61,069 bases of DNA from a virus: positions 1 to 61,069 of IMG/VR virus record IMGVR_UViG_3300035701_000033. One strand, written 5' to 3'. Below the pieces are notes generated by a model. The model saw only the letters and a list, made by a program, of their open reading frames with translations. It was not told the origin of the DNA and ran no database searches. How positions within the stretch are numbered: position 1 is the stretch's first letter; every line of letters begins with the position of its first letter. Made by a program: the position numbers and the translations under genes. Shown one piece after another: positions 4,275 through 58,972 of this stretch.

Positions 4275-7200
4275 CTATTCAGGTTGTTCAGCATTAGGGT
4301 AAAGCTTTTTAAAATGAGCCTCTTTAGTTTTCAGTATTTTTTCCAATAGAATCCTTTCCGCAGGAGTCGCTTTCTCCATGACCTTGCGTGCTTCATCAAG
4401 GGATAGGCGTTTGAATCCTGACGCTAATGGAGATAGTTTTGCCTCCGATTTAATCCGCTTTGCTGCGACTGTACTTATAATACCAGCTGCCACTGCTTCG
4501 TGCAAGTCATTTTCTGCATCGACGTTTTGCATGCGGAATTCTGAGGTTAATTTGGTCAGCATCTTGCTACGTTCAAATTCAACTGCAGTTTTAGTTGTTT
4601 TTGGCATACGTTCAGTTACGAATTTGCGAATCATTTTTTCCGCGGGTGTCCGATTCAGATCAGAGGGGGCTGGCATGATGCCAATGAAGGGTGCGCCCAT
4701 GGCTAGAGCTGTACCTCCGCGCTCTGCTTCTTTCTGCATACCACGAATCCAGAAAGGCATATACTGTTTAGCTGTGAAACCGACAAGCTGAGATGCCTGA
4801 GCAACAATGTTGTCGCCCTCATGACGAATCTCTGTACCATAGTAGTCTTTGTTCTGGATGATGTCACGACCCATACCAAGAGCAGGATGCAGTTTATGCA
4901 GTAGCGTGGTTCCCGGAGCTTCTGAGTATGCGAGTACGTCCTTCATGTAGGTCGGCAGCATGAAGCGTTCCTCAAACCCACGCTCGTCTACGTTACCGGT
5001 CCTGAATGCAATGAAGTCTCTACCCTCTGGGGCTTCACCGGTAAACAGGGCAGTCAATGCTCCGTTGGCAACTGCAGTGGTCAGCAGCAGTGACAGGGTA
5101 TAAGCAGTACGATCAGACATATTAGGTTTCTCGCCCTTAGCTACATTCCTGATTAGATCAGCCACGTCCTTAGCACCGCCGACGAGTTCGAGGATCGTAC
5201 CACCTGTCCACCCCGGAGCCCTTAGTGCGCCCTGTACCATGTTCTTAGCGACATTGTTCACGAAGAGGCGATCATATACGACCTGTCCCAGACGAGAATC
5301 GACACGGTTCCATATCTCCTGCATTGCTTCCCGGCGTTCTTTGAAGGATGCATTAGGATGTTCATTCATCCAGAAAGAACTCATGTCTGCAAAGACACCG
5401 AACTTCTGCCGGGGTACAAGCCATTCCATCAGAGGGCGAGCCATCTGCTCAATCATGGCGAACGGAGCCCGGACAGCAGCACCGATCTTATTCCCGTTGG
5501 CCCATGCTTCGAACATCTTCTCAGTGGTATGGGTCTGGAAGCGTGTATCCATTCCTTTCCTTGCCCCAGCAAGAACTGCATTCTCTGCGATCATGGGGAT
5601 GTCCATTCCATGAGTAATTCCTGCAGATGTCGGATCTGCCATGGCTGCGAGAACCTTACCACCGATCATCGGGTTACGGATAAACTCAGCCGGGGCTTCA
5701 GCAAGATACTTGACGCCGCTGGCAAAGTCGCCATTGGCTATTGCTTTCAAGCCCAGTGCGCCGTGACTTATGATCGCTTCGAGGGACGTGAATCCTGCAT
5801 GGAACATAGAGCCTACGCCGAGCTGCATTTGGTTCAGGTTGTTAGCTAGAGCCATGTAGCCAGAGAATGCTTTACCTATATACTTATTGTTATATAGGTT
5901 CTGGGAGAGGTAGTTGTTAATTACTTGAGCAACATCTTCCCGGACAGCATATTTATAAGACTTGAAGGAATCGAGAAGTTGAACACCATTGGCGTCTACA
6001 TCAGCCCGTTTGACAGTTCCATAGGTTCCGAGGATATTAAGTTCTCCCGGCTCCATCCCTTCCCCTGCGGGAACCAGACGAGCGAGGCCGTCAGATTCGA
6101 GGGACTGCAGCATCTTATGCGCTGCGATGTACCGATCCATTTCCCCGACCTTCATGAAGAATAGATCCATGGGGTTATTGGATACCAGTTTATGACCAGC
6201 TTCGATACCCTCATAGATATCCCCGAATACCCTTTTCTCTGCAAAGGACTTCCGGGTGTCCAGTGGACGTTTCGATATGGCAGTGCTGATGTCACGCATT
6301 GCATCGTCGGCGCGTTCCCAGTATCTTGGGAAATAAGGGTTCTCCCCTTCGCCGGTTCTGATATCCGTGAGTAGTCCTGTACCAAGTTGCTGGATTGTTT
6401 CTACTCTAGCATCGAACATCTCTTTCATGAAGTCGGCAATCTGCTGACGAGGTGCATCTATCTGAGGCTTCCCACTATCCATACGCGCCATGAAGTCATG
6501 TTGCTCACCTACCGGCATCTTGGCGAAGTATGTATCTGCCAGAGTCTTACCCTGTGAACGAACGAGGTCCATGACTGAAGTAACCGTAGAGACTTCGCCC
6601 TTGATACCTTTCATGATCTTGTCGATCTTGGTTGCAGACTGAAGTTGCTTATTCCACATTTCCCCCAGTACCTGACGGAATTCAGCCTGTGTCTGGAATG
6701 CAGCCTCGGAACGTGCGCCGGGGGCAAAGGCTCTACCTGCTTGGTCAATTGTTTCTCTTACATTCTTAATGGTATTAATGACCTTGGGCTTGACATCATC
6801 ATCAACGAACTTAGACTCCATCACGCTCTTGGCCATATCCTGAATTGCATATTTAGGTGCAGGTTTACCGAGAGAACCAAACATCTCCATGCTTTCTTTC
6901 GTGTATTTTCCATACATAGAATAGCGTTCTTCCATCTCACCCGATGCGAGTTTCTTGAATATGTTCTCATCAGTCATCATGAAAGTATTCTTGATGTTCT
7001 GGAAGAAATCTACAATCTTCTGCCAGTATACTTCAATGACGTTCTTCGGACGGTACTTCGGATTACCTGAGATTTTGTCAATATACGCCTGATATGCATC
7101 GGCCCGAGCTTCCTCGGTTGCATACTTCTTGGCGACGATATCTATCTCATGCCTAGTAAGAACTGAGTACTCAGCCCAATGCCATTTCTCGTGGTCGATG

Positions 7201-10200
7201 TTCTTGACACCGTTGGGGGTGAAGGACATGATGGTGTTCAACCCGAGTTCTGCAGCGGCAACTGGCATCTCTGTGGGTTTCAGCTCACGGCCATAGGCAC
7301 TCTCTGCAGCAATTCTTTCCCGAGGGGTCATGATGATTACGGACTGTTCCCGGAAAAGCATATCAGCCCCACCCGGAGTTTTCAGTTTGAACCCTTCAGG
7401 AGTTTCAGTGATCTGCGATTTCGGATATGCTTTCTGGATGATCTCTTTCGTAAGGGTCGGAGTAGTTCCACTGATGGCCTGTTCCAGAGCTTTAAGATTC
7501 TCAGCACTCAGACCACCTTCAGTTTTGATATGCTTATTCCCCAGTTCGGTAAGATCAACCCTGTCGTCCAGAACAGCGACGAGATCAGATCCGAACTTCT
7601 TGCCATAGGTATCCATCCATGCTTTATACTCAGAGCCGCGAGATGCTGCATTGGTATCGCCGCCGAGATCCGGGGTGACTCCGACTACCCTTGCTTTGAT
7701 TCCCAGACTGTCAATGACTGCCTGAGCTTCTGCAATGTCGTTCTTCAGTAGCGCACTTTCACGCCATGTGGAGCCCAAGACAACATCAGGATTACCATTG
7801 CGGTTCAGGATTTTGTTAAACTCTATGACTCTGGAAGGGTCGATGTTCCTACCACCCTCAGCGTTGGTATTGAATACACCGTCGATATCCAGACCGATCA
7901 CTTTCTTACTGGGGTTCGACAGAGCGATACCAGCTTCAGGAGTAGACTCTTGTTTACCGAGCATGTCCTCCATGGCAGCGCGATACTTCGACAGCACACG
8001 ATCAACCATGGCACCTGTCACCTTTTCACCCTGAGAGACAACAGCCATTTCTCCGTTGGCACCGATCCGCTGGATAACCAGATCATAAGCTCCCGGCTGG
8101 AAATCAGCTGCTTCCACTCCACGCAGGATGCCACCTTTACCTGAACGTGCATCGAAGCGAAGCCGTGGGGGTTCATTACCAGCACGACGAATTGCTTCCA
8201 GAGATGCCTCGGATTCACCAGATGCGTTCTCTTCAACTGCGAACTTCTTGGAGGGCATACCTTCTGCTTTGGCAAATGCACGATCAACGAACGCCCGAGC
8301 TTCAAGCGTCATCTCATCCATGTAATCGACAGTCAGTTTACCCTTAACCATTTCAGCTGTAGCGAGTACAGCCTGTGAGCGATCCATCAATTTGAGAGTA
8401 CCGTCCTTGCGAATGACAGCCATGTTCTCTGCAACCTGTACGAACCCACCCTCGGGAATTGCTTTCCCTTTAGGTAGGACTTTATCAGTAGCGGTTACTG
8501 GTGGGGCATCCACAATGGGTTCCTGTGCTGCAGCCTCTACCTTTACCTGTGGGGCGACCTTCGGGAAACGCTCATCGTGGTATGCCTGTAACAGTACGGC
8601 GCGTTCTGGGTTAAGATTCTGCGTCATGGCGATGTCTTTCTCAACCTGTGCTTTAGTCTTGGCATCGAACATCGCAACATCATCAGGAGAAAGACCGGTA
8701 CGCTCTGCTGATGCAGTTACTTCTTTTCCCGTTCTTTCGATAGGGCGATTGCTATTATTTGCTTCCTCGCCGCTTCTTTGGATTTCGGTTTTGGGCTGTT
8801 CCCTATATGTCCCTTCTCTTTCATCGACTGCGCCAGCTCTCTGAAGTTCTGTTCCTTGCTCCCCGGTCCTGATTTCAGTGGCATTGGGTGCCTCCTTCGT
8901 ACTATAATATTTCCCGGATTCCGGGTCGAAAGTATGGTTCTTGCCAACAGCTTCGGCAGCAGATATTTCATGAATCTGGCCGATAGACTTTTCTTCTCCG
9001 TTGGCGAATATATATTTTGCATTCCCCTCATTGTCGGTATGCATAATAGATTCTTGGTTGAACTTCTGCGCCAGTTTCTGCACCTTGGCTCTGTTCTCCG
9101 GGGTGTTCATAACCACGAAAGAGTCTTTGCCCATACCATCATATACACCTTGGACTCTCTTGAATTCCACACCAGCTGCCCGGAGTTCCTGCATAGCGGC
9201 AGTAGTATTAGATGCATCGGCTGCGGGGTCTATACCCTTGCTGACACTGAAGGTAAGTTGTTCGTTGAGTTCTGCGGGCGTTGCTTCAGGAGTTGATAGT
9301 TTAGTGTCAACCTTAGCAGCAAGATCAATATCAGGGTTGGCAATCTTCTCTTCAAGTGCGCTGATTATCTTCCCCCGAGATTTTGCAAGATCAACAGGAA
9401 TTGCTTTCTTGTTGATGATCGCGTCTAAAGCCATAGCACCAAAGCTTTCAGCCTCTGGGGATTTCGCTTCTTGTAAAGCACGTTGCACGTTCTCTGCAGC
9501 TGACCAACGTGCTGCTTCAGGAGCATTAGGATTACCAAGAATATTACGGAGCTTACGCAGTTCCATGGCTTTGTTGACACCAGATACTCCTTTGAACACT
9601 CCAGCGGTTAGAGCTGATTCAAGCCATGCTTCTGGATTTGCCCAGACTTCCTTCATTGCATCAGCTTCAGGACGTGCGCCTGACAGTGCTTCAGTTCCGA
9701 CTGTGGCAGCAGATGCCGCTTGCATGACACCTGTATTAGCGAGGATGTTCGCCCCAGCTCGTTGTGCCATACCTTTGAATGAAGGATTCAGGATCTCGGC
9801 GGCGGTCTTAGCAGCAGGAGCAAGACCCTCAGCATACTTGGCGACAGGACCCATGGCCAATGCGCCAAGTCCAGATACTGCGGCAGGAGCAGTAGCAGCT
9901 TTAATCGCTTCACTCTCTGGCATGCCCTGAGCCTTAGCTGATTCATAAGACCGTTCGAACTGGCCACCAGCCATCGACAAGGCGAAAGCAGGAAGTCCAA
10001 CCGGAGCAGATACAAGACCTGCAGCCAGTGGTGCCGTCGATGCGATAAGGTTCTCAGCGATATCGCCAGCCTTAGCCAGATATGGATGAGCAGCACGAGT
10101 TGCAGGAGTTACAGCTTCTTCCTCAGCAAGTTTCTTACCCCACTCTCTGAACCCTGTACCGATAGGTCTCTCCAGTGGTGCTGTTCCTTGATAAAGTGCA

Positions 10201-10355
10201 TTAAGGCCCCGCGCAATACCCTGTGCGCTGGTCCCCAATGATTCTGCTGTGCGTCCAACCACTCGTTTTATAAAACTACCATCGCCCTCAGACTCAACTT
10301 TTCCTGTATATGGAACACGATTTCCGTTTTCGTCTATAGTAAACTTATCTGACAT
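4275..10355 (-). CDS. Giant polyvalent internal virion protein (2026 aa)
   Basis: At 2026 residues this is the largest gene. Low-complexity Ala/Gly-rich helical stretches that could be membrane-active lie at about residues 90-260. A HAD-like domain starts at DIDGVF (residues 823-828), with STWR downstream and VLDD later, the signature of HAD 'Swiss Army Knife' phosphatase-like domains. A zincin motif HEKWH is at residues 1055-1059. The C-terminal half is long, mostly helical and without recognised motifs. Podoviruses often pack such multi-enzyme proteins in the capsid and eject them with DNA. It follows two other internal-virion candidates in the same operon. Confidence 0.75.
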   Translation of the reverse strand: MSDKFTIDENGNRVPYTGKVESEGDGSFIKRVVGRTAESLGTSAQGIARGLNALYQGTAPLERPIGTGFREWGKKLAEEEAVTPATRAAHPYLAKAGDIAENLIASTAPLAAGLVSAPVGLPAFALSMAGGQFERSYESAKAQGMPESEAIKAATAPAAVSGLGALAMGPVAKYAEGLAPAAKTAAEILNPSFKGMAQRAGANILANTGVMQAASAATVGTEALSGARPEADAMKEVWANPEAWLESALTAGVFKGVSGVNKAMELRKLRNILGNPNAPEAARWSAAENVQRALQEAKSPEAESFGAMALDAIINKKAIPVDLAKSRGKIISALEEKIANPDIDLAAKVDTKLSTPEATPAELNEQLTFSVSKGIDPAADASNTTAAMQELRAAGVEFKRVQGVYDGMGKDSFVVMNTPENRAKVQKLAQKFNQESIMHTDNEGNAKYIFANGEEKSIGQIHEISAAEAVGKNHTFDPESGKYYSTKEAPNATEIRTGEQGTELQRAGAVDEREGTYREQPKTEIQRSGEEANNSNRPIERTGKEVTASAERTGLSPDDVAMFDAKTKAQVEKDIAMTQNLNPERAVLLQAYHDERFPKVAPQVKVEAAAQEPIVDAPPVTATDKVLPKGKAIPEGGFVQVAENMAVIRKDGTLKLMDRSQAVLATAEMVKGKLTVDYMDEMTLEARAFVDRAFAKAEGMPSKKFAVEENASGESEASLEAIRRAGNEPPRLRFDARSGKGGILRGVEAADFQPGAYDLVIQRIGANGEMAVVSQGEKVTGAMVDRVLSKYRAAMEDMLGKQESTPEAGIALSNPSKKVIGLDIDGVFNTNAEGGRNIDPSRVIEFNKILNRNGNPDVVLGSTWRESALLKNDIAEAQAVIDSLGIKARVVGVTPDLGGDTNAASRGSEYKAWMDTYGKKFGSDLVAVLDDRVDLTELGNKHIKTEGGLSAENLKALEQAISGTTPTLTKEIIQKAYPKSQITETPEGFKLKTPGGADMLFREQSVIIMTPRERIAAESAYGRELKPTEMPVAAAELGLNTIMSFTPNGVKNIDHEKWHWAEYSVLTRHEIDIVAKKYATEEARADAYQAYIDKISGNPKYRPKNVIEVYWQKIVDFFQNIKNTFMMTDENIFKKLASGEMEERYSMYGKYTKESMEMFGSLGKPAPKYAIQDMAKSVMESKFVDDDVKPKVINTIKNVRETIDQAGRAFAPGARSEAAFQTQAEFRQVLGEMWNKQLQSATKIDKIMKGIKGEVSTVTSVMDLVRSQGKTLADTYFAKMPVGEQHDFMARMDSGKPQIDAPRQQIADFMKEMFDARVETIQQLGTGLLTDIRTGEGENPYFPRYWERADDAMRDISTAISKRPLDTRKSFAEKRVFGDIYEGIEAGHKLVSNNPMDLFFMKVGEMDRYIAAHKMLQSLESDGLARLVPAGEGMEPGELNILGTYGTVKRADVDANGVQLLDSFKSYKYAVREDVAQVINNYLSQNLYNNKYIGKAFSGYMALANNLNQMQLGVGSMFHAGFTSLEAIISHGALGLKAIANGDFASGVKYLAEAPAEFIRNPMIGGKVLAAMADPTSAGITHGMDIPMIAENAVLAGARKGMDTRFQTHTTEKMFEAWANGNKIGAAVRAPFAMIEQMARPLMEWLVPRQKFGVFADMSSFWMNEHPNASFKERREAMQEIWNRVDSRLGQVVYDRLFVNNVAKNMVQGALRAPGWTGGTILELVGGAKDVADLIRNVAKGEKPNMSDRTAYTLSLLLTTAVANGALTALFTGEAPEGRDFIAFRTGNVDERGFEERFMLPTYMKDVLAYSEAPGTTLLHKLHPALGMGRDIIQNKDYYGTEIRHEGDNIVAQASQLVGFTAKQYMPFWIRGMQKEAERGGTALAMGAPFIGIMPAPSDLNRTPAEKMIRKFVTERMPKTTKTAVEFERSKMLTKLTSEFRMQNVDAENDLHEAVAAGIISTVAAKRIKSEAKLSPLASGFKRLSLDEARKVMEKATPAERILLEKILKTKEAHFKKLYPNAEQPE

Positions 10356-40229: not shown

Positions 40230-41072
40230 ATGAAACCTGAAGAATTGAAAGAAGTATTACGACTGCACAAACTATGGCTCGAAGGTAATCCAGAAGGTAA
40301 ATGCGCGGACTTTTCGGGCGCGAACTTGGCATATGCGAACTTATCGCACGTGAACTTGACAGACGCGAACTTGGCATATGCGAACTTATCGCACGTGAAC
40401 TTGACAGGCGCGGACTTGGCATATGCGGACTTGTCATATGCGATCTTGAGAGGCGCGAACTTGTCGCGGGTGAATTTGACAGGCGCGAACTTGAGAGACG
40501 CGATCTTGTCGCGGGTGAATTTGACAGACGCGAACTTGACAGACGCGAACTTGACAGACGCGAACTTGAGAGACGCGAACTTGACAGACGCGAACTTGAC
40601 ACGCGCGAACTTGACAGGCGCGAACTTGACAGACGCGAACTTGACAAACGCGGACTTGTCATATGCGAACTTGACAGGCGCGAACTTGAGAGACGCGATC
40701 TTGTCGCGGGTGAACTTGAGAGACGCGAAGCTCCCGAATTTTCAGATATGTCCAGAAGTAGGGAGTTTTCGAGCGTTTAAAAAACTGGCAAACGGCGATA
40801 TCGTAGAACTGGAGATACCGGCAAGAGCAAAACGTACAAGTTCGCTCGTTGGGCGAAAATGTAGGGCTGAATTTGCCAAGGTTATAACATTCTGGAATAC
40901 AGATCATTCAAAATCAAAATCAATAATTGGGAAGAGCACTTATATCAATAGTTTCAAATATGTTAAAGGCTCAGTAGTTCATTCGTATTCATACGACGAT
41001 GATATAAGAATTGAGTGTACGCACGGAATACACTTTTTCGTAACTTTTAAAGAAGCCGCAGAGTATTGCTGA
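40230..41072 (+). CDS. Pentapeptide-repeat protein 1 with DUF5758-like C-domain
   Basis: A 280-residue protein. The N-terminus MKPEELKEVLRLHKLWLEGN is a helix shared by all four paralogues; about 27 tandem pentapeptides (A(N/D)LxX) follow to residue 168. The C-terminal domain (FRAFKKLANGDIVELEIP, RKCRAEFAKVI, HGIHFFVTFKEAAEY) matches DUF5758, often found after pentapeptide repeats in phages. Pentapeptide coils are right-handed beta helices that can mimic DNA and bind gyrase. Only this copy keeps the DUF5758 domain. Confidence 0.8.
   Translation: MKPEELKEVLRLHKLWLEGNPEGKCADFSGANLAYANLSHVNLTDANLAYANLSHVNLTGADLAYADLSYAILRGANLSRVNLTGANLRDAILSRVNLTDANLTDANLTDANLRDANLTDANLTRANLTGANLTDANLTNADLSYANLTGANLRDAILSRVNLRDAKLPNFQICPEVGSFRAFKKLANGDIVELEIPARAKRTSSLVGRKCRAEFAKVITFWNTDHSKSKSIIGKSTYINSFKYVKGSVVHSYSYDDDIRIECTHGIHFFVTFKEAAEYC
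40301..40734. repeat. 15-bp tandem repeat array 1
   Basis: Tandem 15-bp units of the form GCG(A/G)A(C)TTG followed by six bases chosen from a small set (ACAGAC, ACAGGC, AGAGAC, TCATAT, TCGCGG and a few more). Because the units lack stop codons in most frames, shadow reading frames on both strands look long here; only the ANLTD frame has a ribosome site and a unique domain. Confidence 0.85.
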
Positions 41073-41079
41073 TTTATAC

Positions 41080-41109
41080 ACCATCTCGGAACTGAGAATC
41101 TGAGATGGT
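41080..41109 (+). terminator. Hairpin after pentapeptide gene 1
   Basis: ACCATCTC pairs perfectly with GAGATGGT across 14 bases, starting eight bases after the stop. It has no T-tract, so it is more likely an RNA processing or stabilising stem. Confidence 0.45.
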
Positions 41110-41142
41110 AATGGATCAACAACACGAAGAAAGGAGAAAATC

Positions 41143-41295
41143 ATGGATGTACAAGCGAGTAATACCACTGAGTTTATACCCAATCAGACCAAATTAAGTC
41201 GTCGTAAAAGGAGAGTAGAAAATACATTGGTCGTCTGTCCGCACGAACGGGAATTGTTTACATCGAAGGAATTTAAAAAATACTTAACGACCTAA
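41143..41295 (+). CDS. Small basic protein
   Basis: A 50-residue gene behind AAAGGAGAAAATC. The product has a basic centre (KLSRRKRRVENTL) and ends with TSKEFKKYLTT. It could bind nucleic acid; no family recognised. It lies between pentapeptide gene 1 and a small zinc-ribbon gene. Confidence 0.6.
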   Translation: MDVQASNTTEFIPNQTKLSRRKRRVENTLVVCPHERELFTSKEFKKYLTT

Positions 41296-41384
41296 TCAAT
41301 TTAGGATCAACTTTCAAATATGTAAAGGAGCAGATAGAAAAAGCAAACTGTAAATTGCCGTCTGGAAAAAAGGGGGAGCTTAAA

Positions 41385-41537
41385 ATGAGATGCCCTATAT
41401 GTAAAAGTAAATTGTCGGATGATGAATGTCTGAGTTGTGAAAAAGTCAACGATTATAAATGCGAACCTGACAGTTTTACAATTCTACGCAAATTCCATAA
41501 TTATGATTTTGAACTACAGGCCAAGGGGGAAGTATGA
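41385..41537 (+). CDS. Small zinc-ribbon protein
   Basis: A 50-residue protein starting at ATG 41385, behind GGGGGAGCTTAAA, the same ribosome site that precedes the pentapeptide genes. MRCPICKSKLS and CLSCEKVNDYKC give a CPxC plus CxxC zinc ribbon. An in-frame ATG ten codons earlier lacks a site. Overlaps the next gene by ATGA. Confidence 0.65.
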   Translation: MRCPICKSKLSDDECLSCEKVNDYKCEPDSFTILRKFHNYDFELQAKGEV

Positions 41538-41731
41538 AAACAATAGATAAAGCAGTAAAGTTTAAGCTTAGAGAATGTGTGGTAGTGGACACTCCTGATG
41601 ATGAGTCAGACGATCCATATCTAACCGAAAAAGGAGTAGTTATACACAATTTTTTTGGTAGGTATTATACAATAACTTTTTCTGACGGCAATTGTTATTT
41701 CTATGCTGACCATGAATTAAGTAAATGCTAA
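41534..41731 (+). CDS. Small acidic protein
   Basis: A 65-residue protein coupled to the zinc-ribbon gene by an ATGA overlap. Acidic loop DTPDDESDDPYLT followed by strands GVVIHNFFGRYYTITFSDG, an SH3-like or similar beta pattern. Function unknown. Confidence 0.6.
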   Translation: MKTIDKAVKFKLRECVVVDTPDDESDDPYLTEKGVVIHNFFGRYYTITFSDGNCYFYADHELSKC

Positions 41732-41746
41732 AAGGGGGAGCTTAAA

Positions 41747-42352
41747 ATGAAACTTGAAGAATTGAAAGAAGTATTACGACTGCACAAACTATGGCTCGAA
41801 GGTAATCCAGAAGGTAAATGCGCAGACTTGTCATATGCGGACTTTTCGGGCGCGGACTTGTCAGACGCGGACTTTTCGGGCGCGATCTTGAGAGGCGCGA
41901 ACTTGACAGGCGCGAACTTGTCGCGGGTGAATTTGACAGGCGCGAACTTGAGAGACGCGATCTTGAGAGACGCGATCTTGTCGCGGGTGAATTTGACAGG
42001 CGCGAACTTGACAGGCGCGAACTTGAGAGACGCGATCTTGTCGCGGGTGAATTTGACAGACGCGAACTTGACAGACGCGAACTTGAGAGACGCGAACTTG
42101 ACAGACGCGAACTTGACACGCGCGGACTTGACAGGCGCGAACTTGACAGGCGCGAACTTGACAGACGCGAACTTGTCATATGCGGACTTGTCATATGCGA
42201 ACTTATCGCACGTGAACTTGTCATATGCGGACTTTTCGGGCGCGATCTTGACAGGCGCGAACTTGACAAACGCGAACTTGACACGCGCGAACTTAGATTA
42301 TGCTGCATGGCCTTTAAGGTGTAGTAGCGTAAATGTAAAAGGGGGAGCTTAA
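41747..42352 (+). CDS. Pentapeptide-repeat protein 2 (truncated by tandem duplication)
   Basis: A 201-residue paralogue with the shared N-terminal helix and about 32 pentapeptides. Its tail NLDYAAWPLRCSSVNVK is identical to that of copy 3, but then the DNA switches into the ribosome site of copy 3 and the frame stops at TAA just one base before the next ATG. The C-terminal domain that copy 3 retains is therefore missing. This marks a tandem duplication breakpoint. Confidence 0.8.
   Translation: MKLEELKEVLRLHKLWLEGNPEGKCADLSYADFSGADLSDADFSGAILRGANLTGANLSRVNLTGANLRDAILRDAILSRVNLTGANLTGANLRDAILSRVNLTDANLTDANLRDANLTDANLTRADLTGANLTGANLTDANLSYADLSYANLSHVNLSYADFSGAILTGANLTNANLTRANLDYAAWPLRCSSVNVKGGA
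41820..42291. repeat. 15-bp tandem repeat array 2
   Basis: About thirty 15-bp units of the same vocabulary as array 1, including the ordered pair AGAGAC-TCGCGG after GCGATCTTG that is repeated three times here. Shared sub-blocks across arrays suggest unequal recombination or gene conversion. Confidence 0.85.
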
Positions 42353-42353
42353 A

Positions 42354-42956
42354 ATGAAACTTGAAGAATTGAAAGAAGTATTACGACTGCACAAACTATG
42401 GCTCGAAGGTAATCCAGAAGGTAAATGCGCAGACTTGTCATATGCAGACTTGTCATATGCGGACTTTTCGGGCGCGGACTTGGCATATGCGGACTTGGCA
42501 TATGCGGACTTGGCATATGCGGACTTTTCGGGCGCGATCTTGTCAGACGCGGACTTGTCAGACGCGAACTTGTCATATGCGGACTTTTCGGGCGCGAACT
42601 TGACAAACGCGGACTTGACAGGCGCGATCTTGACAGGCGCGATCTTGAGAGACGCGATCTTGACAGGCGCGAACTTGTCATATGCGGACTTTTCGGGCGC
42701 GAACTTGACAAACGCGGACTTGACAGGCGCGGACTTGACAGGCGCGAACTTGTCAGACGCGAACTTAGATTATGCTGCATGGCCTTTAAGGTGTAGTAGC
42801 GTAAATGTAAAAGTGGATAATCAAATAGCAGCGCAATTATTGTTTCATGCGTTCGCAGTTGCAGGAATAAATCCTACGGCTGAACAGATAAAATATATCC
42901 GAGCGTTTAGGCGTTTTGACGAGTGTGGCGGAGCAGATAGACTACTTAAAAAATAA
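42354..42956 (+). CDS. Pentapeptide-repeat protein 3
   Basis: A 200-residue paralogue. Shared N-terminal helix, about 23 pentapeptides dominated by ADFSG, ADLAY and AILTG, then a C-terminal helical domain (IAAQLLFHAFAVAGINPT, IKYIRAFRRFDECGG) not seen in the other copies. Its ribosome site GGGGGAGCTTAAA doubles as the end of copy 2. Confidence 0.8.
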   Translation: MKLEELKEVLRLHKLWLEGNPEGKCADLSYADLSYADFSGADLAYADLAYADLAYADFSGAILSDADLSDANLSYADFSGANLTNADLTGAILTGAILRDAILTGANLSYADFSGANLTNADLTGADLTGANLSDANLDYAAWPLRCSSVNVKVDNQIAAQLLFHAFAVAGINPTAEQIKYIRAFRRFDECGGADRLLKK

Positions 42957-42967
42957 AGGGATTTAAA

Positions 42968-43192
42968 ATGGAGTCTCATGAGAAATTATGGAGATTGAGA
43001 AAGGAGAAGGTTATGTGGATGGAGAATGTAACATTGGTTTATGAGCAAAGAGCTGAAGCAGAAAAGAAAAAGCTGGCTGTAATGCAAACAGAAATGGCCT
43101 CTGCCATAGATGCACTACATCAGGTCGGTAAGGAACTGCGGGATCATCCCGAAGCGATCGAGCAATGCATCAAGGTCTTACAGGAGGGATAA
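42968..43192 (+). CDS. Coiled-coil protein
   Basis: A 74-residue charged coiled coil (LVYEQRAEAEKKKLAVMQ, IDALHQVGKELRD). Two starts are possible: 42968 behind AAAGGGATTTAA, and 43013 behind the stronger AAAGGAGAAGGTT, giving 59 residues. Function unknown. Confidence 0.6.
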   Translation: MESHEKLWRLRKEKVMWMENVTLVYEQRAEAEKKKLAVMQTEMASAIDALHQVGKELRDHPEAIEQCIKVLQEG

Positions 43193-43261
43193 ATGGGGCT
43201 ATTTATTTTTGTGATAATAGTTTGGGCATTATTAAAGTTGATGGAAAAACGGCATAAATAA
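43193..43261 (+). CDS. 22-residue membrane peptide
   Basis: ATG 43193 follows CAGGAGGGATAA, overlapping the previous stop. The product MGLFIFVIIVWALLKL then MEKRHK is a single hydrophobic helix with a basic tail, expected to insert N-out or N-in in the inner membrane. Similar mini-membrane genes recur at 52718 and 55180. Confidence 0.6.
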   Translation: MGLFIFVIIVWALLKLMEKRHK

Positions 43262-43296
43262 AAGATCTTTCTTTAAAGAGAGAAAAGGAGCTTAAA

Positions 43297-44001
43297 ATGA
43301 AACCTGAAGAATTGAAAGAAGTATTACGACTGCACAAACTATGGCTCGAAGGTAATCCAGAAGGTAAATGCGCGGACTTTTCGGGCGCGAACTTGACAGA
43401 CGCGAACTTGACAGACGCGAACTTGACAGACGCGAACTTGAGAGACGCGAACTTGACAGACGCGAACTTGACAGACGCGAACTTGAGAGACGCGAACTTG
43501 ACAGGCGCGAACTTGACAGACGCGAACTTGTCATATGCGGACTTGTCATATGCGAACTTATCGCACGTGAACTTCACAGACGCGAACTTGTCGCGGGTGA
43601 ATTTGACAGGCGCGAACTTGACAGGCGCGAACTTGACATGCGCGAACTTGAGAGACGCGAACTTGACAGGCGCGATCTTGAGAGACGCGATCTTGACAGG
43701 CGCGAACTTGAGAGACGCGAACTTGTCGCGGGTGAATTTGACAGACGCGAACTTGTCATATGCGGACTTGTCATATGCGAACTTATCGCACGTGAACTTC
43801 ACAGACGCGAACTTGTCGCGGGTGAATTTGACATGTGCGAACTTGACAGGCGCGAACTTCACAGACGCGAACTTTGCAGGCGCGGACTTGTCATATGCGG
43901 ACTTGACACGCGCGAACTTGTCAGACGCGGACTTGTCAGACGCGAACTTGTCGCGGGTGAATTTGACATGTGCGAACTTGACAGGCGTTATAACTAAATG
44001 A
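43297..44001 (+). CDS. Pentapeptide-repeat protein 4
   Basis: A 234-residue paralogue with the shared N-terminal helix and about 41 pentapeptides that run to the end; the frame closes shortly after the last unit, ANLTGVITK. It has no C-terminal domain. It contains two copies of a 13-unit-scale block (SYADLSYANLSHVNFTDANL) that differ little, pointing to internal duplication. Confidence 0.8.
   Translation: MKPEELKEVLRLHKLWLEGNPEGKCADFSGANLTDANLTDANLTDANLRDANLTDANLTDANLRDANLTGANLTDANLSYADLSYANLSHVNFTDANLSRVNLTGANLTGANLTCANLRDANLTGAILRDAILTGANLRDANLSRVNLTDANLSYADLSYANLSHVNFTDANLSRVNLTCANLTGANFTDANFAGADLSYADLTRANLSDADLSDANLSRVNLTCANLTGVITK
43371..43987. repeat. 15-bp tandem repeat array 4
   Basis: About forty 15-bp units. 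Two near-identical blocks, around 43525-43600 and 43750-43830, contain the rare TTCACAGAC variant, evidence of segmental duplication inside the array. Both strands stay open in several frames because of unit composition. Confidence 0.8.
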
Positions 44002-45439: not shown

Positions 45440-46534
45440 ATGGAACCGGAAATCCTTAGCGAAAATGAACTACCATCCCCCCGCGAGATAAAAGCGGTAC
45501 TGGATAAATATGTAGTGGGGCAGGATAAAGCTAAGAAGATTCTATCAGTCGCAGTATATAATCATTATAGGCGTATTGATACAATCGCAGACCCGGATGA
45601 AGTTGAGATGCAAAAAAGTAATATCCTCCTTCTTGGCCCAACTGGATCAGGTAAAACTCTTTTGGCCCAGACATTGGCCCAGACACTAAAGGTTCCATTT
45701 GCAATGGCTGATGCAACCTCATTGACTCAAGCAGGATATGTTGGCGAGGATGTAGAAAGTATCCTTACGAAACTATTGGCTTCAGCAGATGGCAATATAG
45801 ACGAAGCCCAGCGCGGGATCGTGTATATCGATGAGATCGACAAGATCGCTCAGCGGGACGTAACATCCACATCAAGGGATGTATCGGGCGAGGGTGTACA
45901 ACAGGCACTGTTAAAGATCATTGAAGGAACAATAGCCAATGTCCCATTGCAGCGAGGTCTGAAATTCGCAGATAAGCAGACTGTCAAAATGGATACCAAG
46001 AATATCCTTTGCATATGTGGTGGGGCCTTTGCCAAGATTGAAGATATTATTCAGCAAAGAATGAACATTAAGCGGATAGGATTTTCTAATATAGTAACTG
46101 CGAAGAATAGTAAAAAAGGTAATGAATTTTTAAGTGAGGTTACACCAAACGACTTGCGTACATTCGGACTTATCCCGGAGTTTATCGGTAGATTGCCTAT
46201 ACTTGCTATCCTGAATGAACTTGAAGAGGCTACACTTGTCCAGATATTGAAAGACCCGAAGAACGCATTGGTTAAACAATATAGCAAATTATTCGCCTTA
46301 TCAAGCGTGGAACTTATTTTCCGGGATGAAGCACTGGAAGCTATAGCCCGGAAAGCAATTAAGTACAATACCGGGGCTAGAGGGCTAAGAGCAATACTAG
46401 AACATACCATGCTGAATATCATGTATGAAATTCCGCAATCCAATATTAGCCAAGTCGTCATAACTGCTGAGGTAATATCAGGAGTTGCCGAACCTCTCAT
46501 TAAGTGTAAAGGAGTAAAGTATGCTCAGGAATAA
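45440..46534 (+). CDS. ClpX-like AAA+ unfoldase lacking the N-terminal zinc domain
   Basis: A 364-residue protein. It starts at the AAA+ module with [20 protein letters not shown], then Walker A GPTGSGKT, pore loop GYVGED, Walker B VYIDEID, sensor [11 protein letters not shown], and the C-terminal small domain [12 protein letters not shown]. Cellular ClpX has about 420 residues with a Cys4 zinc domain in front; that is missing here. The IGF loop (RIGFSN) used to dock ClpP is kept, so it may still pair with host ClpP while ignoring adaptors. Ribosome site AAAGAAAGGGCGATAGCAA is moderate. Confidence 0.88.
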
Positions 46535-46709: not shown

Positions 46710-46839
46710 ATTTGAAGAGCGTCTTAGACGACAGAATCTACGCCCCAACAGTCAAGAGTGGATCATAGAAATACAAGATTATGATTTTCAAAAACGAACA
46801 ATGGAAAGGACAATAAAAAATGAATTGCACAAACTGTAA
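46690..46839 (+). CDS. Small charged protein
   Basis: A 49-residue protein starting at ATG 46690 behind GGAGACAAT. Very basic and helical (RLRNKFEERLRRQNLRPN, DFQKRTMERTIKNEL). It overlaps the next start by 20 bases. May bind nucleic acid; no family known. Confidence 0.5.
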   Translation: MDRLRNKFEERLRRQNLRPNSQEWIIEIQDYDFQKRTMERTIKNELHKL

Positions 46840-46954
46840 ACATATAATAACATGCAAAAAATGTATGTGGTGTAGATGGGAAGGATCAGACATCTGTGAT
46901 GATTGCAGTTCCAACGACGGCGAATGTCGGTTTCAAGAAGGAGGCGTACAATGA
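46820..46954 (+). CDS. Cys-rich microprotein A
   Basis: A 44-residue protein with eight Cys at 3, 6, 12, 15, 18, 26, 29 and 36 (MNCTNCKHIITCKKC then WC, CDDC, EC). It is one of three tandem relatives with the same Cys spacing, which should bind two zinc ions. Linked to the next by an ATGA overlap. Internal ribosome-like GGACAATAAAAA is weak, so translation may be coupled. Confidence 0.7.
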   Translation: MNCTNCKHIITCKKCMWCRWEGSDICDDCSSNDGECRFQEGGVQ

Positions 46955-47094
46955 GATGTGAAGACTGTCCAAACTTTGTTGGATGTCGAGCATGTATAAT
47001 ATGTGAACATAGAGTCGAGGCATATTATTCTTCTATTTGTAAAGAATGTATGTCTATGCTTGGGGCTTGTAACTTTAAGGAGCGTAAATTATGA
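46951..47094 (+). CDS. Cys-rich microprotein B
   Basis: A 47-residue protein with eight Cys at 3, 6, 12, 15, 18, 30, 33 and 40 (MRCEDCPNFVGCRAC then IC, CKEC, ACNF). Start behind AAGGAGGCGTACA. Shares the CxxC-CxxCxxC-CxxC-CxF pattern with A and C. Confidence 0.75.
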   Translation: MRCEDCPNFVGCRACIICEHRVEAYYSSICKECMSMLGACNFKERKL

Positions 47095-47231
47095 AATGCA
47101 AAGAGTGCGAAAAATATCATCAGCCTTGCTGGCTTTGCATTAATTGCAAACATTTTATGGATAAGAACTGGCAACGCTGTATATCTTGCATGAAAAGTAC
47201 AGATATATGCGTCTGGGAGGAAAAGAAATGA
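47091..47231 (+). CDS. Cys-rich microprotein C
   Basis: A 46-residue protein with eight Cys at 3, 6, 13, 16, 19, 30, 33 and 40 (MKCKECEKYHQPCWLC then NC, CISC, ICVW). Start overlaps B by ATGA and lies behind AAGGAGCGTAAATT. Third member of the trio. Confidence 0.75.
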   Translation: MKCKECEKYHQPCWLCINCKHFMDKNWQRCISCMKSTDICVWEEKK

Positions 47232-48497: not shown

Positions 48498-48721
48498 TGC
48501 AATCCAATGATATCATGAAAGCATTTTATGTCTCAGTAATGGTTCACGAAAAACAGCCAGAAGCCATATATCTTGGCCGTGATAACTTTGATCGGCTTCG
48601 AGTAGAGGTTAGGCTGGATCTCCGGGAAAAATGGGCAGGGCATACGCGATCTGGCCGCGCTGAGTTCAACGGCCTACCTATTTATATAGTGGACGAAGAT
48701 GAATTTCTCATGGTAATATAA
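48497..48721 (+). CDS. Small protein upstream of the polymerase
   Basis: A 74-residue protein coupled to both neighbours by TAATG overlaps. Beta-alpha-beta (AFYVSVMVHEKQPEAIYLG, LRVEVRLDLREKW, GLPIYIVDEDEFLMVI). No family recognised. Its stop overlaps the start of the polymerase exonuclease half. Confidence 0.6.
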   Translation: MQSNDIMKAFYVSVMVHEKQPEAIYLGRDNFDRLRVEVRLDLREKWAGHTRSGRAEFNGLPIYIVDEDEFLMVI

Positions 48722-49800
48722 TGCGACTCTTAACCATGGACTTTGAAACATTTTATGGAACTGGATACACTCTCAGTTCAATGACGAACGAGGAATATAT
48801 CCGGGACCCAAGATTTGAAATCATCATGTGTAGCTTCAAGATGGATGAGAATCCATGCTTCTGGGTTCCGGGTCCACAGGTCTGGTCGGTACTAGCCAAG
48901 ATACCGTGGCATGAGACTGCGGTGATTAGTCATCATTCACATTTTGACATGGCGATTCTTAACTGGATATATGGATATCGCCCTGCTTTTATTCTCGACA
49001 CGCTCCCGATGTTCCGGGCTCTATTTCCTGCAGAACGCGCATCGTTAAAAAATATGTGCGAGGTTCTGGGAATAGGAGCTAAAGGAACTGAGGTTGAGAA
49101 CGCGAGAGGTAAGCACTACAGGGATTTCTCCCCGCAGGAGTTAGCTCGGTATGGGTCATACTGCGTAAATGACACAGAGAGGACAAGAGAAGCGTTCGAC
49201 ATCATGAAGGTTGGTTATCCTCTTTCCGAGTTACAACTTAACGATATGATTACTCGACTGTTTACAGAACCAATGGTCGAATTAGATCGAGATCTACTTA
49301 TTCTTATGCGGGATGATGAGATCGAAGAGAAGCGTAGACTCATGGAGAAACTGAATGTTGATCGGTCTGTCATATCCTCGAATCCTCAGTTCGCTGCATT
49401 GTTGCTAGAGTGCGGGGTAGACCCGCCGAAGAAGATCAGTCCAGCATGGCGTAAGGCACATCCAGACGAAGACCCCGGTGAGGAACCTGTTGGACTTCTC
49501 CCGGACGGTATGAAGTCATGGGCCTATGCTCTGGCTAAGAACGACGAAGCTGCCAAGGAACTGGCCGCGAGTGAAGACGTGCTGATAAGTGCGCTTATGG
49601 AAGCGCGGTTCGGAATTAAGAGTACTATCAAACAGACACGATCCCAGCGGTTCATAGGCATAGCAGAACGAGGAACCTTCCCCATCTACCTGAAAGCCTA
49701 TGCTGCCCATACCGGACGGCTTGGTGGCGGGGATAAATCGAATGCTCAGAACTTAACCAAGAAGTGTAGTTACTGCGATGGAAATGGAGAGGTGCTATGA
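48721..49800 (+). CDS. Split family A DNA polymerase, N-terminal half (3'-5' exonuclease)
   Basis: A 359-residue protein. The DEDDy exonuclease has MDFETFYG (Asp7, Glu9) and HHSHFDMAI near 80, then YCVNDTERTREAF near 155. The thumb follows and the sequence reaches KAYAAHTGRLGGGDKSNAQNL, normally continuous with the palm. Here it ends KKCSYCDGNGEVL. Cys349 and Cys352 with GxG form half of a DnaJ-like CxxCxGxG element. The downstream gene carries the rest of the polymerase. Confidence 0.85.
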   Translation: MRLLTMDFETFYGTGYTLSSMTNEEYIRDPRFEIIMCSFKMDENPCFWVPGPQVWSVLAKIPWHETAVISHHSHFDMAILNWIYGYRPAFILDTLPMFRALFPAERASLKNMCEVLGIGAKGTEVENARGKHYRDFSPQELARYGSYCVNDTERTREAFDIMKVGYPLSELQLNDMITRLFTEPMVELDRDLLILMRDDEIEEKRRLMEKLNVDRSVISSNPQFAALLLECGVDPPKKISPAWRKAHPDEDPGEEPVGLLPDGMKSWAYALAKNDEAAKELAASEDVLISALMEARFGIKSTIKQTRSQRFIGIAERGTFPIYLKAYAAHTGRLGGGDKSNAQNLTKKCSYCDGNGEVL

Positions 49801-50039
49801 AATACAGAGTGATTGAGATTGTAAAAAGATCAACGGTTGCACTTGATCGTTATTTTCAGATTGAACGACGGTATTCGTTTTGGCCATGGTGGTGTGTGAT
49901 GCGCAATGTAATTGGCCCAATAAGTTTTTATTCAAAGGACGCAGCAATCGGGTATATTAACCGTGAGATTCAGAATAAAGAATACGTAGAAGAGCACAAA
50001 AAAACACTGACAGAGACAAGGACTATTCATGAAGTGTGA
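49797..50039 (+). CDS. Small protein inserted between the polymerase halves
   Basis: An 80-residue protein overlapping the end of the N-half by ATGA and the start of the C-half by 11 bases, with its own site GGAGAGGTGCT. Content: IVKRSTVALDRYFQIERRYSF, aromatic WPWWC, SFYSKDAAIGYINREIQ. No homing endonuclease, intron or intein motif is visible. It may be a moron or a bridging subunit. Confidence 0.7.
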   Translation: MKYRVIEIVKRSTVALDRYFQIERRYSFWPWWCVMRNVIGPISFYSKDAAIGYINREIQNKEYVEEHKKTLTETRTIHEV

Positions 50040-51021
50040 TCGTTGTGACGGTACAGGTATCTCAGCACTCAGACGTGCGATTATGGCACCTCCCGGCCAC
50101 GTCATAGTGGTACGCGACTTGTCGCAGATCGAAGCGCGGGTAAACTTCTGGATAGCTGAACAGCAGAGCATGGTCGATACCTATCGCCGGGGGGAGGATA
50201 CCTATTGTAAGATGGCCTCGACTATATTCGGTCGGCCTATTATAAAGAAAGAACATCCTCGGGAAAGATTTCTTGGAAAAACTACGGTCCTCGGTTGCGG
50301 GTACGGGCTCGGCTGGAAGAAGTTCCAAGGCATGTTACGAATAGGCATGTTGGGTGAGAAGGGTTTGATCCTCGGAGAAGAGATCTCTCAGGCACTGGGC
50401 GTATATCCAGAGCAGTTCCTTGAACGGCATAGAAAATATGTGGACGAGTCAATGCCACCGAACATTCCATATCCTATCCATGCCACGCACTGCGCGAATG
50501 CAGAGAGAATAATCAAGACCTTCCGGGATAACAATCCCATGTTGATTCAGTTCTGGAAGACCTGTCAGGAAGCACTCGGACATATACTGGCCGGGGATTA
50601 TGGCTGGAAGTTCGGGAATGGCGGCATCATCGAAACTTGTGCAGAAGGATTGCGATTGCCTAACGGCATGATAATGCGGTACGTCGAACTGAGGACCAAG
50701 AAAGAAGGAAAATACAATGAGTTCAGTATCCTGCGGGATAGAAAGAAAGGACAAAGGGAGAAGTTGTACGGCGGAAAAGTCGATGAGAATATCGTACAAG
50801 CGTTGGCACGAATCGTTATCACCGACGACATGCTCAGGATGCGCAAAGAGGGGATTCATGTCGTGCATCAAGTGCATGATGAGATCTTGGCTGTTTGTCC
50901 TGAGAATGAGGCTAAAGCTACGTATGAGCAGATGGGATTGGTAATGTCTAAAGCCCCGTCGTGGGCTCCAGACTTGCCCCTCGGATCAGAGGGTGGATGG
51001 GACAGGCGTTATATAAAATAA
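50029..51021 (+). CDS. Split family A DNA polymerase, C-terminal half (palm and fingers)
   Basis: A 330-residue protein. It begins MKCDRCDGTG (Cys3, Cys6), the matching CxxCxGxG half, then resumes polymerase with SALRRAIMAPPGHV. Motif A DLSQIEARV is at 30-38, motif B region ERFLGKTTVLGCGYGLG at 79-95 and motif C VHDE at 282-285, so both catalytic acids are present. The split sits between the thumb/NAQNL motif and motif A. Confidence 0.9.
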   Translation: MKCDRCDGTGISALRRAIMAPPGHVIVVRDLSQIEARVNFWIAEQQSMVDTYRRGEDTYCKMASTIFGRPIIKKEHPRERFLGKTTVLGCGYGLGWKKFQGMLRIGMLGEKGLILGEEISQALGVYPEQFLERHRKYVDESMPPNIPYPIHATHCANAERIIKTFRDNNPMLIQFWKTCQEALGHILAGDYGWKFGNGGIIETCAEGLRLPNGMIMRYVELRTKKEGKYNEFSILRDRKKGQREKLYGGKVDENIVQALARIVITDDMLRMRKEGIHVVHQVHDEILAVCPENEAKATYEQMGLVMSKAPSWAPDLPLGSEGGWDRRYIK

Positions 51022-57946: not shown

Positions 57947-58972
57947 TCCGAAAATTTGCCAACAACATTGCCAGCCCACGTCCTTGCCCTTCGTTCACAA
58001 TGCAGTGGTATCCTTGAAACTCTGGAAGAAGATGCTCTTGCTGGATTGTATGCCGGTTCACCTCCCCAGATCAAACTGAGTGGGACTCGCTTCATCGTAT
58101 CCAAGGATGGTGAAGAACATGCCCTCGATAGAACAAGCATTGGCCTTGTAATTGTCCGTGGTAAAGCCACGCTGGACAAAGTATTCTATATCAAAGCATT
58201 TACTCCCGGCGACGAACCTGTAAAACCTGATTGCTTTTCACGAGATGGCATTACACCTGATTCTTCAGCTGAATTGAAGCAAGCCAATGCTTGTGCCGGT
58301 TGTCCGAAGAATCAGTTTGGTACAGGTCGGGATGCTCAGGGTAATGCCACTGACGGTAAAGCATGCCGTGATTTCAAAAAAATTGCAGTTACTCCCGGTA
58401 GTAGAGATGGCATCTTTCAGTTCAGTATTCCTCCTGCTTCCCTCGGTGGTTTCGCCAAGTATGTAGCCAGCCTGAAGGGTCGTGGTATCCATCTGGCTGA
58501 AGCGATCACCACTATCGGATTTGATATCAAATGTTCATACCCAAAACTGACATTCGAGTTTGCCGGTCTGCTGCCCGAGGCTGAACTAGCCTATGTATAT
58601 GATGTCATCGATAGTCAAGAAGTTCGTGATATCGTGAACGTCAAGATAGCAGCACCGCAACAACAACAACAGCAGATTGCTCAGACTCTTGCTCCTGTGG
58701 CGACTCTTGCTCCTGTGGCGACTCTTGCTCCTGTGGCGACTCCTGCTCCTGCGTTCGGTAGCTTTGATGCTCCTGCTACTCCTATGGCGACTCCGAAATC
58801 CAACAGGAAAAAAGCTGACCTCGCTCCTGCGACAGCAGAGATTCCAATTCGGGCTGTAGTACAGGAACCTGCTCTTGATGCTACGGTGGCCATGGGGTTC
58901 GGCGCATCGACACCCACAACTGCAGCTAGTATGCCGACTGATGACGCACTCTCTGCCCTGCTCGGGCTGTAA
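57944..58972 (+). CDS. Candidate single-strand DNA-binding protein
   Basis: Start at ATG 57944 (AAAAGGAGAAATAAAAAA upstream), not at the in-frame ATG 57896. 342 residues: OB-like N-terminal body with CAGCPKNQFGTGRDAQGN and CRDF (Cys cluster near 115-140), then a Gln/Ala/Pro-rich flexible tail from about residue 230, and a short acidic-hydrophobic C-terminus DDALSALLGL typical of SSBs. Gene order (next to primase and HTH) fits. Identity inferred from layout. Confidence 0.6.
   Translation: MSENLPTTLPAHVLALRSQCSGILETLEEDALAGLYAGSPPQIKLSGTRFIVSKDGEEHALDRTSIGLVIVRGKATLDKVFYIKAFTPGDEPVKPDCFSRDGITPDSSAELKQANACAGCPKNQFGTGRDAQGNATDGKACRDFKKIAVTPGSRDGIFQFSIPPASLGGFAKYVASLKGRGIHLAEAITTIGFDIKCSYPKLTFEFAGLLPEAELAYVYDVIDSQEVRDIVNVKIAAPQQQQQQIAQTLAPVATLAPVATLAPVATPAPAFGSFDAPATPMATPKSNRKKADLAPATAEIPIRAVVQEPALDATVAMGFGASTPTTAASMPTDDALSALLGL
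58685..58738 (+). repeat. 18-bp tandem repeat in the SSB linker
   Basis: Three perfect copies of ACTCTTGCTCCTGTGGCG encode TLAPVA in the flexible linker; a degenerate fourth follows. Slippage would change only linker length. Confidence 0.85.

Follow-up and report, generated by a model that had tools for sequence, protein, structure and literature searches.

Is a phage DNA polymerase whose gene is broken into two open reading frames (ORFs), each carrying a cysteine pair at the break, still one enzyme, and what would hold it together? This question is raised by the IMG/VR record IMGVR_UViG_3300035701_000033, of which a stretch of 61,069 nt (hereafter the window) was analysed and the piece 48,498-51,021 was examined for the polymerase region. 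Three ORFs follow one another there on the + strand: the exonuclease/thumb half of a family A DNA polymerase (359 aa; 48721..49800), an ORF of 80 aa that fills the gap (49797..50039), and the palm/fingers half (330 aa; 50029..51021). In the window translation, the exonuclease half ends in NAQNLTKKCSYCDGNGEVL and the palm half begins with MKCDRCDGTGISALRRAI. The C-terminal tail of the former, KCSYCDGNGEVL (49762..49797, +), carries a knuckle formed by C349 and C352, and the N-terminal tail of the latter, MKCDRCDGTG (50029..50058, +), carries a second one formed by C3 and C6. Coordinates, tail sequences and the overlaps of 4 bp (exonuclease half/80-aa ORF) and 11 bp (80-aa ORF/palm half) reported in an earlier, sequence-only reading of this DNA were all reproduced. 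Probable ribosome-binding sites were recognised for the 80-aa gene within the exonuclease tail (GGAGAGG, 49786..49792, +) and for the palm half 6 nt upstream of its ATG (AAGGA, 50018..50022, +).

The assignment to family A was based on profile matches of both halves. The palm half scored 63.3 bits with Pfam DNA_pol_A, above the curated cut-off of 34.3, and matched the DNA polymerase profile phrog_17 with an E of 4.5e-47 from profile position 994 onwards. The exonuclease half matched positions 670-988 of the same profile (E 2.4e-15) and was further identified by its identity to the corresponding halves of the relatives L005 and L102 described below. Since the first match ends at 988 and the second starts at 994, the family-wide profile stops and resumes at the break. 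Exonuclease motifs I (D7-F-E9, 48739..48747, +), II (F75-D76, 48943..48948, +) and III (Y147-xxx-D151, 49159..49173, +) are complete, with D7 and E9 invariant among nine relatives and motifs II and III likewise invariant among relatives. The palm half has motif A (DLSQIEAR with D30 and E35, 50116..50139, +), motif B (R80xxxK84xxxxxxxY92G93, 50266..50307, +) and motif C (H283-D284-E285, 50875..50883, +). All catalytic residues of the exonuclease (D7/E9, D76, Y147/D151) and of the polymerase (D30/E35, R80/K84/Y92, H283-D284-E285) are thus retained, as had been claimed from the sequence alone. A search of the window record found no second PolA, no PolB and no PolIII alpha, which leaves this two-chain family A enzyme as the only DNA polymerase detected there. 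It is not encoded as a single polypeptide, as its two ORFs are separated by 8 in-frame stops. One polypeptide is the common arrangement in family A but does not strictly define it, and split members exist.

The final conserved block before the break is NAQNL (49741..49755, +), the equivalent of NLQNI in Klenow, and mapping onto E. coli Pol I placed the break within the loop NLQNIPVRNEEGRRIRQAF. The break thus lies between the NAQNL and motif A segments, as the sequence-only reading had it, and within one short loop. This loop lies inside the palm in the published Klenow layout, so that neither chain holds a complete palm: the first chain would contain the thumb and an initial palm segment in addition to the 3'-5' exonuclease, and the second the remaining palm with motifs A and C plus the fingers with motif B. 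Among the distinct whole polymerases in the retrieved loci, the spacing from NxQNL to APxG is exactly 11 residues in 109 of 115, and none of the 115 has a CxxC in the break loop. Of these 11 residues, the split exonuclease half provides 2 and the palm half 9, and the sole additions in the split enzyme are therefore the two cysteine tails. Within genuine-looking ORFs of the window, CxxCxGxG matches only these two tails; one extra match, with a relaxed last position, falls in an ORF antisense to a gene of 2026 aa. The combined patterns of knuckle plus NxQNL and of knuckle plus motif A each gave one match in the window and none in 100 shuffles. The polymerase of Pseudomonas phage Rollin (L001:3001-5142) is whole and carries about 47 additional residues, with no CxxC among them, at the position of the break loop.

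Scans of viral and genome collections with proteins and sequence patterns yielded only two further split members; the phages and plasmids collections gave whole or distant polymerases only. The first, IMGVR_UViG_3300036884_000037 (IMG/VR; loci L005 and L085), is 82% identical to the window in the exonuclease half, which ends in NAQNLTKLCGRCNGEKEVPDENV, and 84% in the palm half, which starts with MKCDRCDGTGISALRR. The second, IMGVR_UViG_3300044712_000496 (IMG/VR; L102), is 46% identical in the exonuclease half, which ends in NLQNLSRSCTICDGSGKINV, and 59% in the palm half (its intein removed), which starts with MSECPCEKCAGTGVSPLRR; its two half ORFs share 8 bp, which leaves no sequence between the knuckles. 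The break is at the same residue in the window, L005 and L102, and all three retain the CxxC of the exonuclease tail and the CxxCxGTG of the palm tail, with C349, C352 and G354 of the former and C3, C6, G8, T9 and G10 of the latter invariant. Both cysteine pairs are hence present in every split relative found, in agreement with the conservation expected in the earlier reading. Phylogenetic analysis of 38 polymerases grouped the split members in one clade (support 100/100) with the unsplit polymerase of L103 as sister (99/94), and a single origin of the split therefore suffices. Locus L222 was rejected as a further member, being a chance antisense match, and so were matches from Corynebacterium, Microcystis and Streptococcus phages that apparently reached the tail, as they have no CxxC there. 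The polymerases of this group also differ in insertions. About 45 residues after motif B (window 50340-50520, MLGEKG...ILGEEISQALGVYPE) are common to all split members and the unsplit L103 and missing from the other aligned relatives, and motif B of the L102 palm half is interrupted in frame by an intein-like stretch of about 129 aa (L102:4235-4621; CLTGDNRVL...YILVHN, then Cys), which is absent from the window and L005.

Introns are common in phage polymerase genes, and an intron was suspected by the authors in the split polymerase gene of phage MEP401 (PMC10580990), so rejoining of the halves by an intron, a frameshift or a bypass, or else an assembly error, had to be weighed against a true split. 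Rfam gave no intron match in the window region, L005 or L102, and the overlapping ORFs of L102 have no space for one. In the window, the halves are in the same frame with the 8 stops between them; the frame of the palm half relative to the exonuclease half is 0 in the window, 1 in L005 and 1 in L102. Together with the lack of a gap in L102, these results exclude a conserved splice, bypass or frameshift, and the same break in three separate assemblies rules out a sequencing error. Readthrough or frameshifting was rejected on the in-frame stops and the unconserved frame. A split intein was rejected because the two tails, at 12 and 10 residues, could not accommodate the halves of an intein and no intein Pfam match was obtained, and a gene split by a homing endonuclease because the 80-aa ORF has no Pfam match and L102 has no intervening gene. 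The sequence-only reading had seen no intron or intein signal, which the Rfam and Pfam searches confirmed, and had named rejoining of the halves through an error or an intron as one outcome that would overturn it; this outcome was not borne out. The split occurs naturally and has been selected; it is not an error, and rejoined or misassembled halves are highly improbable.

Gene splitting often signals decay, and one or both halves might be degenerating while another polymerase replicates the phage. Pairwise comparison of the window with L005 gave pS 0.78 and pN 0.11 for the exonuclease core and pS 0.64 and pN 0.10 (omega ~0.07) for the palm core, i.e. synonymous sites are near saturation in both halves (pS 0.64-0.78) at a pN of about 0.10. 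Both halves are under strong purifying selection. This, the intact catalytic residues and the lack of any other polymerase family among those searched for make decay hardly credible. In the same comparison, the palm tail has 4 synonymous changes and none of its 24.3 non-synonymous sites changed, and the exonuclease tail has a pN of 0.40, yet both of its cysteines and the first glycine are unchanged. These substitution patterns indicate that the tails are translated, and the retention of cysteines among diverging neighbours is as would be expected for metal ligands.

For structure prediction, the window was read through as exonuclease half, 77-residue junk linker and palm half, with stops as residues, and 80 relatives were aligned. 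The AlphaFold model reached a pLDDT of 88.6 and a pTM of 0.85, with only residues 358-427 below 50 (disordered), and Foldseek aligned it across both halves to Klenow, Taq and Bst with E values of about 1e-18, with 8oo6 and 1kfs among the matches. The halves are thus predicted to fit together as one Klenow-like enzyme. The two chains would be translated separately from the adjacent ORFs and fold against each other like the unbroken enzyme; they presumably associate in the cell, and the enzyme presumably replicates the phage genome. A working polymerase of two chains is, in our view, very probable.

Each of the two chains carries one CxxC at the break, conserved in the three members, and since every split relative found has kept both pairs, the best reading of the tails is an interchain zinc bridge. 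The CxxC of the exonuclease tail and that of the palm tail would bind one zinc as Zn(Cys)4 and thereby pin the broken loop. We consider such a clasp, in which four cysteines from two chains share one zinc, reasonably likely. When hypothetically joined, the tails scored 20.9, 17.3 and 23.0 bits with the DnaJ central domain (PF00684, cut-off 32.7) and also stayed below threshold for Anti-TRAP; they therefore bear a likeness to a known zinc module but fall outside it, and they hold two CXXCXGXG repeats compared to the four required of a DnaJ domain. Counted against the clasp were the moderate confidence of the modelled knuckle regions (mean 60 for block 351-360 and 59 for block 431-440), the loss of the second glycine from the exonuclease tail of L005, the small number of known split members of this type (three only), and the lack, among the relatives, of an unsplit polymerase with two knuckles at the break loop. 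The sequence-only reading had suggested looking for such an unsplit relative; the known unsplit case with two motifs, the HMO-2011-type polymerases discussed below, has them in the thumb. As to the order of events, the loop may first have taken up a zinc hairpin that later broke at its turn, or the break may have come first and gained the knuckles afterwards.

It is possible, though clearly less probable than the clasp, that the two-chain polymerase works with its halves held by ordinary domain packing and that the knuckles have another role, either binding metal together with a different partner (a second copy of the same chain, a helicase or DNA) or forming a redox-sensitive disulfide. The halves would be expected from the model to share a large palm interface anyway, the halves of phage MEP401 have no CxxC at their break, and the phage proteins gp43A and gp43B co-purify and are active (PMC2988022). 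On the other hand, the knuckles sit exactly at both ends of the break, are kept together in 3/3 members and are absent from the 115 whole relatives, and the sharing of one zinc by CxxC pairs of two chains is an established arrangement, as in the zinc hook of Rad50, where each of two chains contributes one CXXC (PMC9569753). Rad50 is a coiled-coil homodimer of unrelated sequence and serves as a mechanistic analogy only. Going beyond a structural clasp, the zinc site may act as a switch, with palm assembly and activity depending on zinc and reduced cysteines and with a free exonuclease chain or an assembled polymerase under different conditions or stages, which we regard as unlikely. Quite unlikely, too, is that the tails are relics of a gene-breaking event, left behind by a DnaJ-like insert or by a cassette that invaded the gene, and devoid of a current role: small genes do invade the junction, and Rollin has its insert at the same loop, but the tail cysteines persist despite near-saturated synonymous sites and purifying selection acts on the palm tail.

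The content of the junction varies, with one gene in the window, two in L005 and none in L102. The two genes of L005 (L005:6046-6563) encode a cysteine-containing protein of about 82 aa (MKTCSGCKHF...) and one of 79 aa; the latter gave no BLASTP match with the 80-aa protein of the window (pN 0.52). For the 80-aa ORF itself, no Pfam match was found and the best PHROG match was weak (E 0.03), to a family of unknown function. The two genes in L005 show that small genes come and go at this junction, and the variable number and the lack of conservation suggest that the 80-aa gene probably entered a junction that already existed and is not part of the polymerase machine. A role of the 80-aa protein as third subunit was rejected, as it is conserved neither in L005 nor in L102. 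The earlier proposal that all three genes are coupled accordingly goes too far: the translational overlaps are real, but functional coupling is unsupported.

Both split phage polymerases and unsplit phage PolA with two CXXCXGXG motifs are already known. The HMO-2011-type polymerases (Puniceispirillum phage HMO-2011 gp12; CRP-1/2/3) are family A enzymes with two CXXCXGXG motifs, which represent a partial DnaJ domain (PMC9038755, PMC6918029, PMC8528129) and are taken to bind zinc (PMC9038755, PMC6918029). They share with the window enzyme the family and the two motifs, but form an unbroken chain that has both motifs between its exonuclease and polymerase domains; in our alignment, the motifs precede NMQNMP by about 135 residues, in the thumb, and the NMQNMP-motif A loop is uninterrupted. 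The window polymerase does not belong to this type, as its motifs are divided between two chains and lie at a different site, the palm break. In Methylophilales phages MEP401 and MEP402, PolA is likewise broken in the segment from NLQN to motif A, and a single small ORF of unknown function (77 aa) separates the halves (PMC10580990); their break lies about 15 residues downstream of that in the window (NLQNFDGEIKTLFLSRYGE / MILNADAKALEW), their tails lack CxxC and the sequence is distant from that of the window. Aeromonas phage 25 gp43A/gp43B and the split NrdA of phage Aeh1 are also phage replication enzymes in two chains, which reassemble and are active, but they belong to family B and to the ribonucleotide reductases, respectively, and are associated with homing endonucleases or an untranslated spacer; zinc knuckles are not described in the available part of the report (PMC2988022). 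In LUZ24-like phages, PolA is spread over separated ORFs as well (DNA polymerase part I and part II; PMC3890496), but the break falls where the exonuclease and polymerase domains meet, about ten ORFs separate the parts, and the arrangement is described as intron-related. Our search of the open-access literature turned up no description of a broken polymerase with a zinc knuckle at both ends of the break. If the interchain clasp is real, a catalytic domain has been naturally cut in two and repaired by a metal site between chains, which would show that selection can stabilise a broken essential enzyme and would provide a directly testable, genetically split, metal-dependent polymerase. The loop between NxQNL and motif A would then be a tolerated break point in phage PolA, as seen in the window clade, nearby in MEP401 and in the insert of Rollin.

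Other features were observed elsewhere in the window. Three tandem small ORFs (46820-47231) encode cysteine-rich, CxxC-rich proteins (e.g. MKCKECEKYHQPCWLC) with matches in L005, and a ClpX-like AAA+ gene (45440-46534; AAA_2, ClpB_D2-small) is 70% identical in L005. A run of pentapeptide-repeat genes (40230-44001) contains 15-bp DNA repeats in up to 38 copies and has long open frames on the opposite strand, too. The 2026-aa gene mentioned above occupies 4275-10355 on the - strand, and a nearly perfect 18-bp tandem repeat of 3.8 copies is located at 58684-58751.
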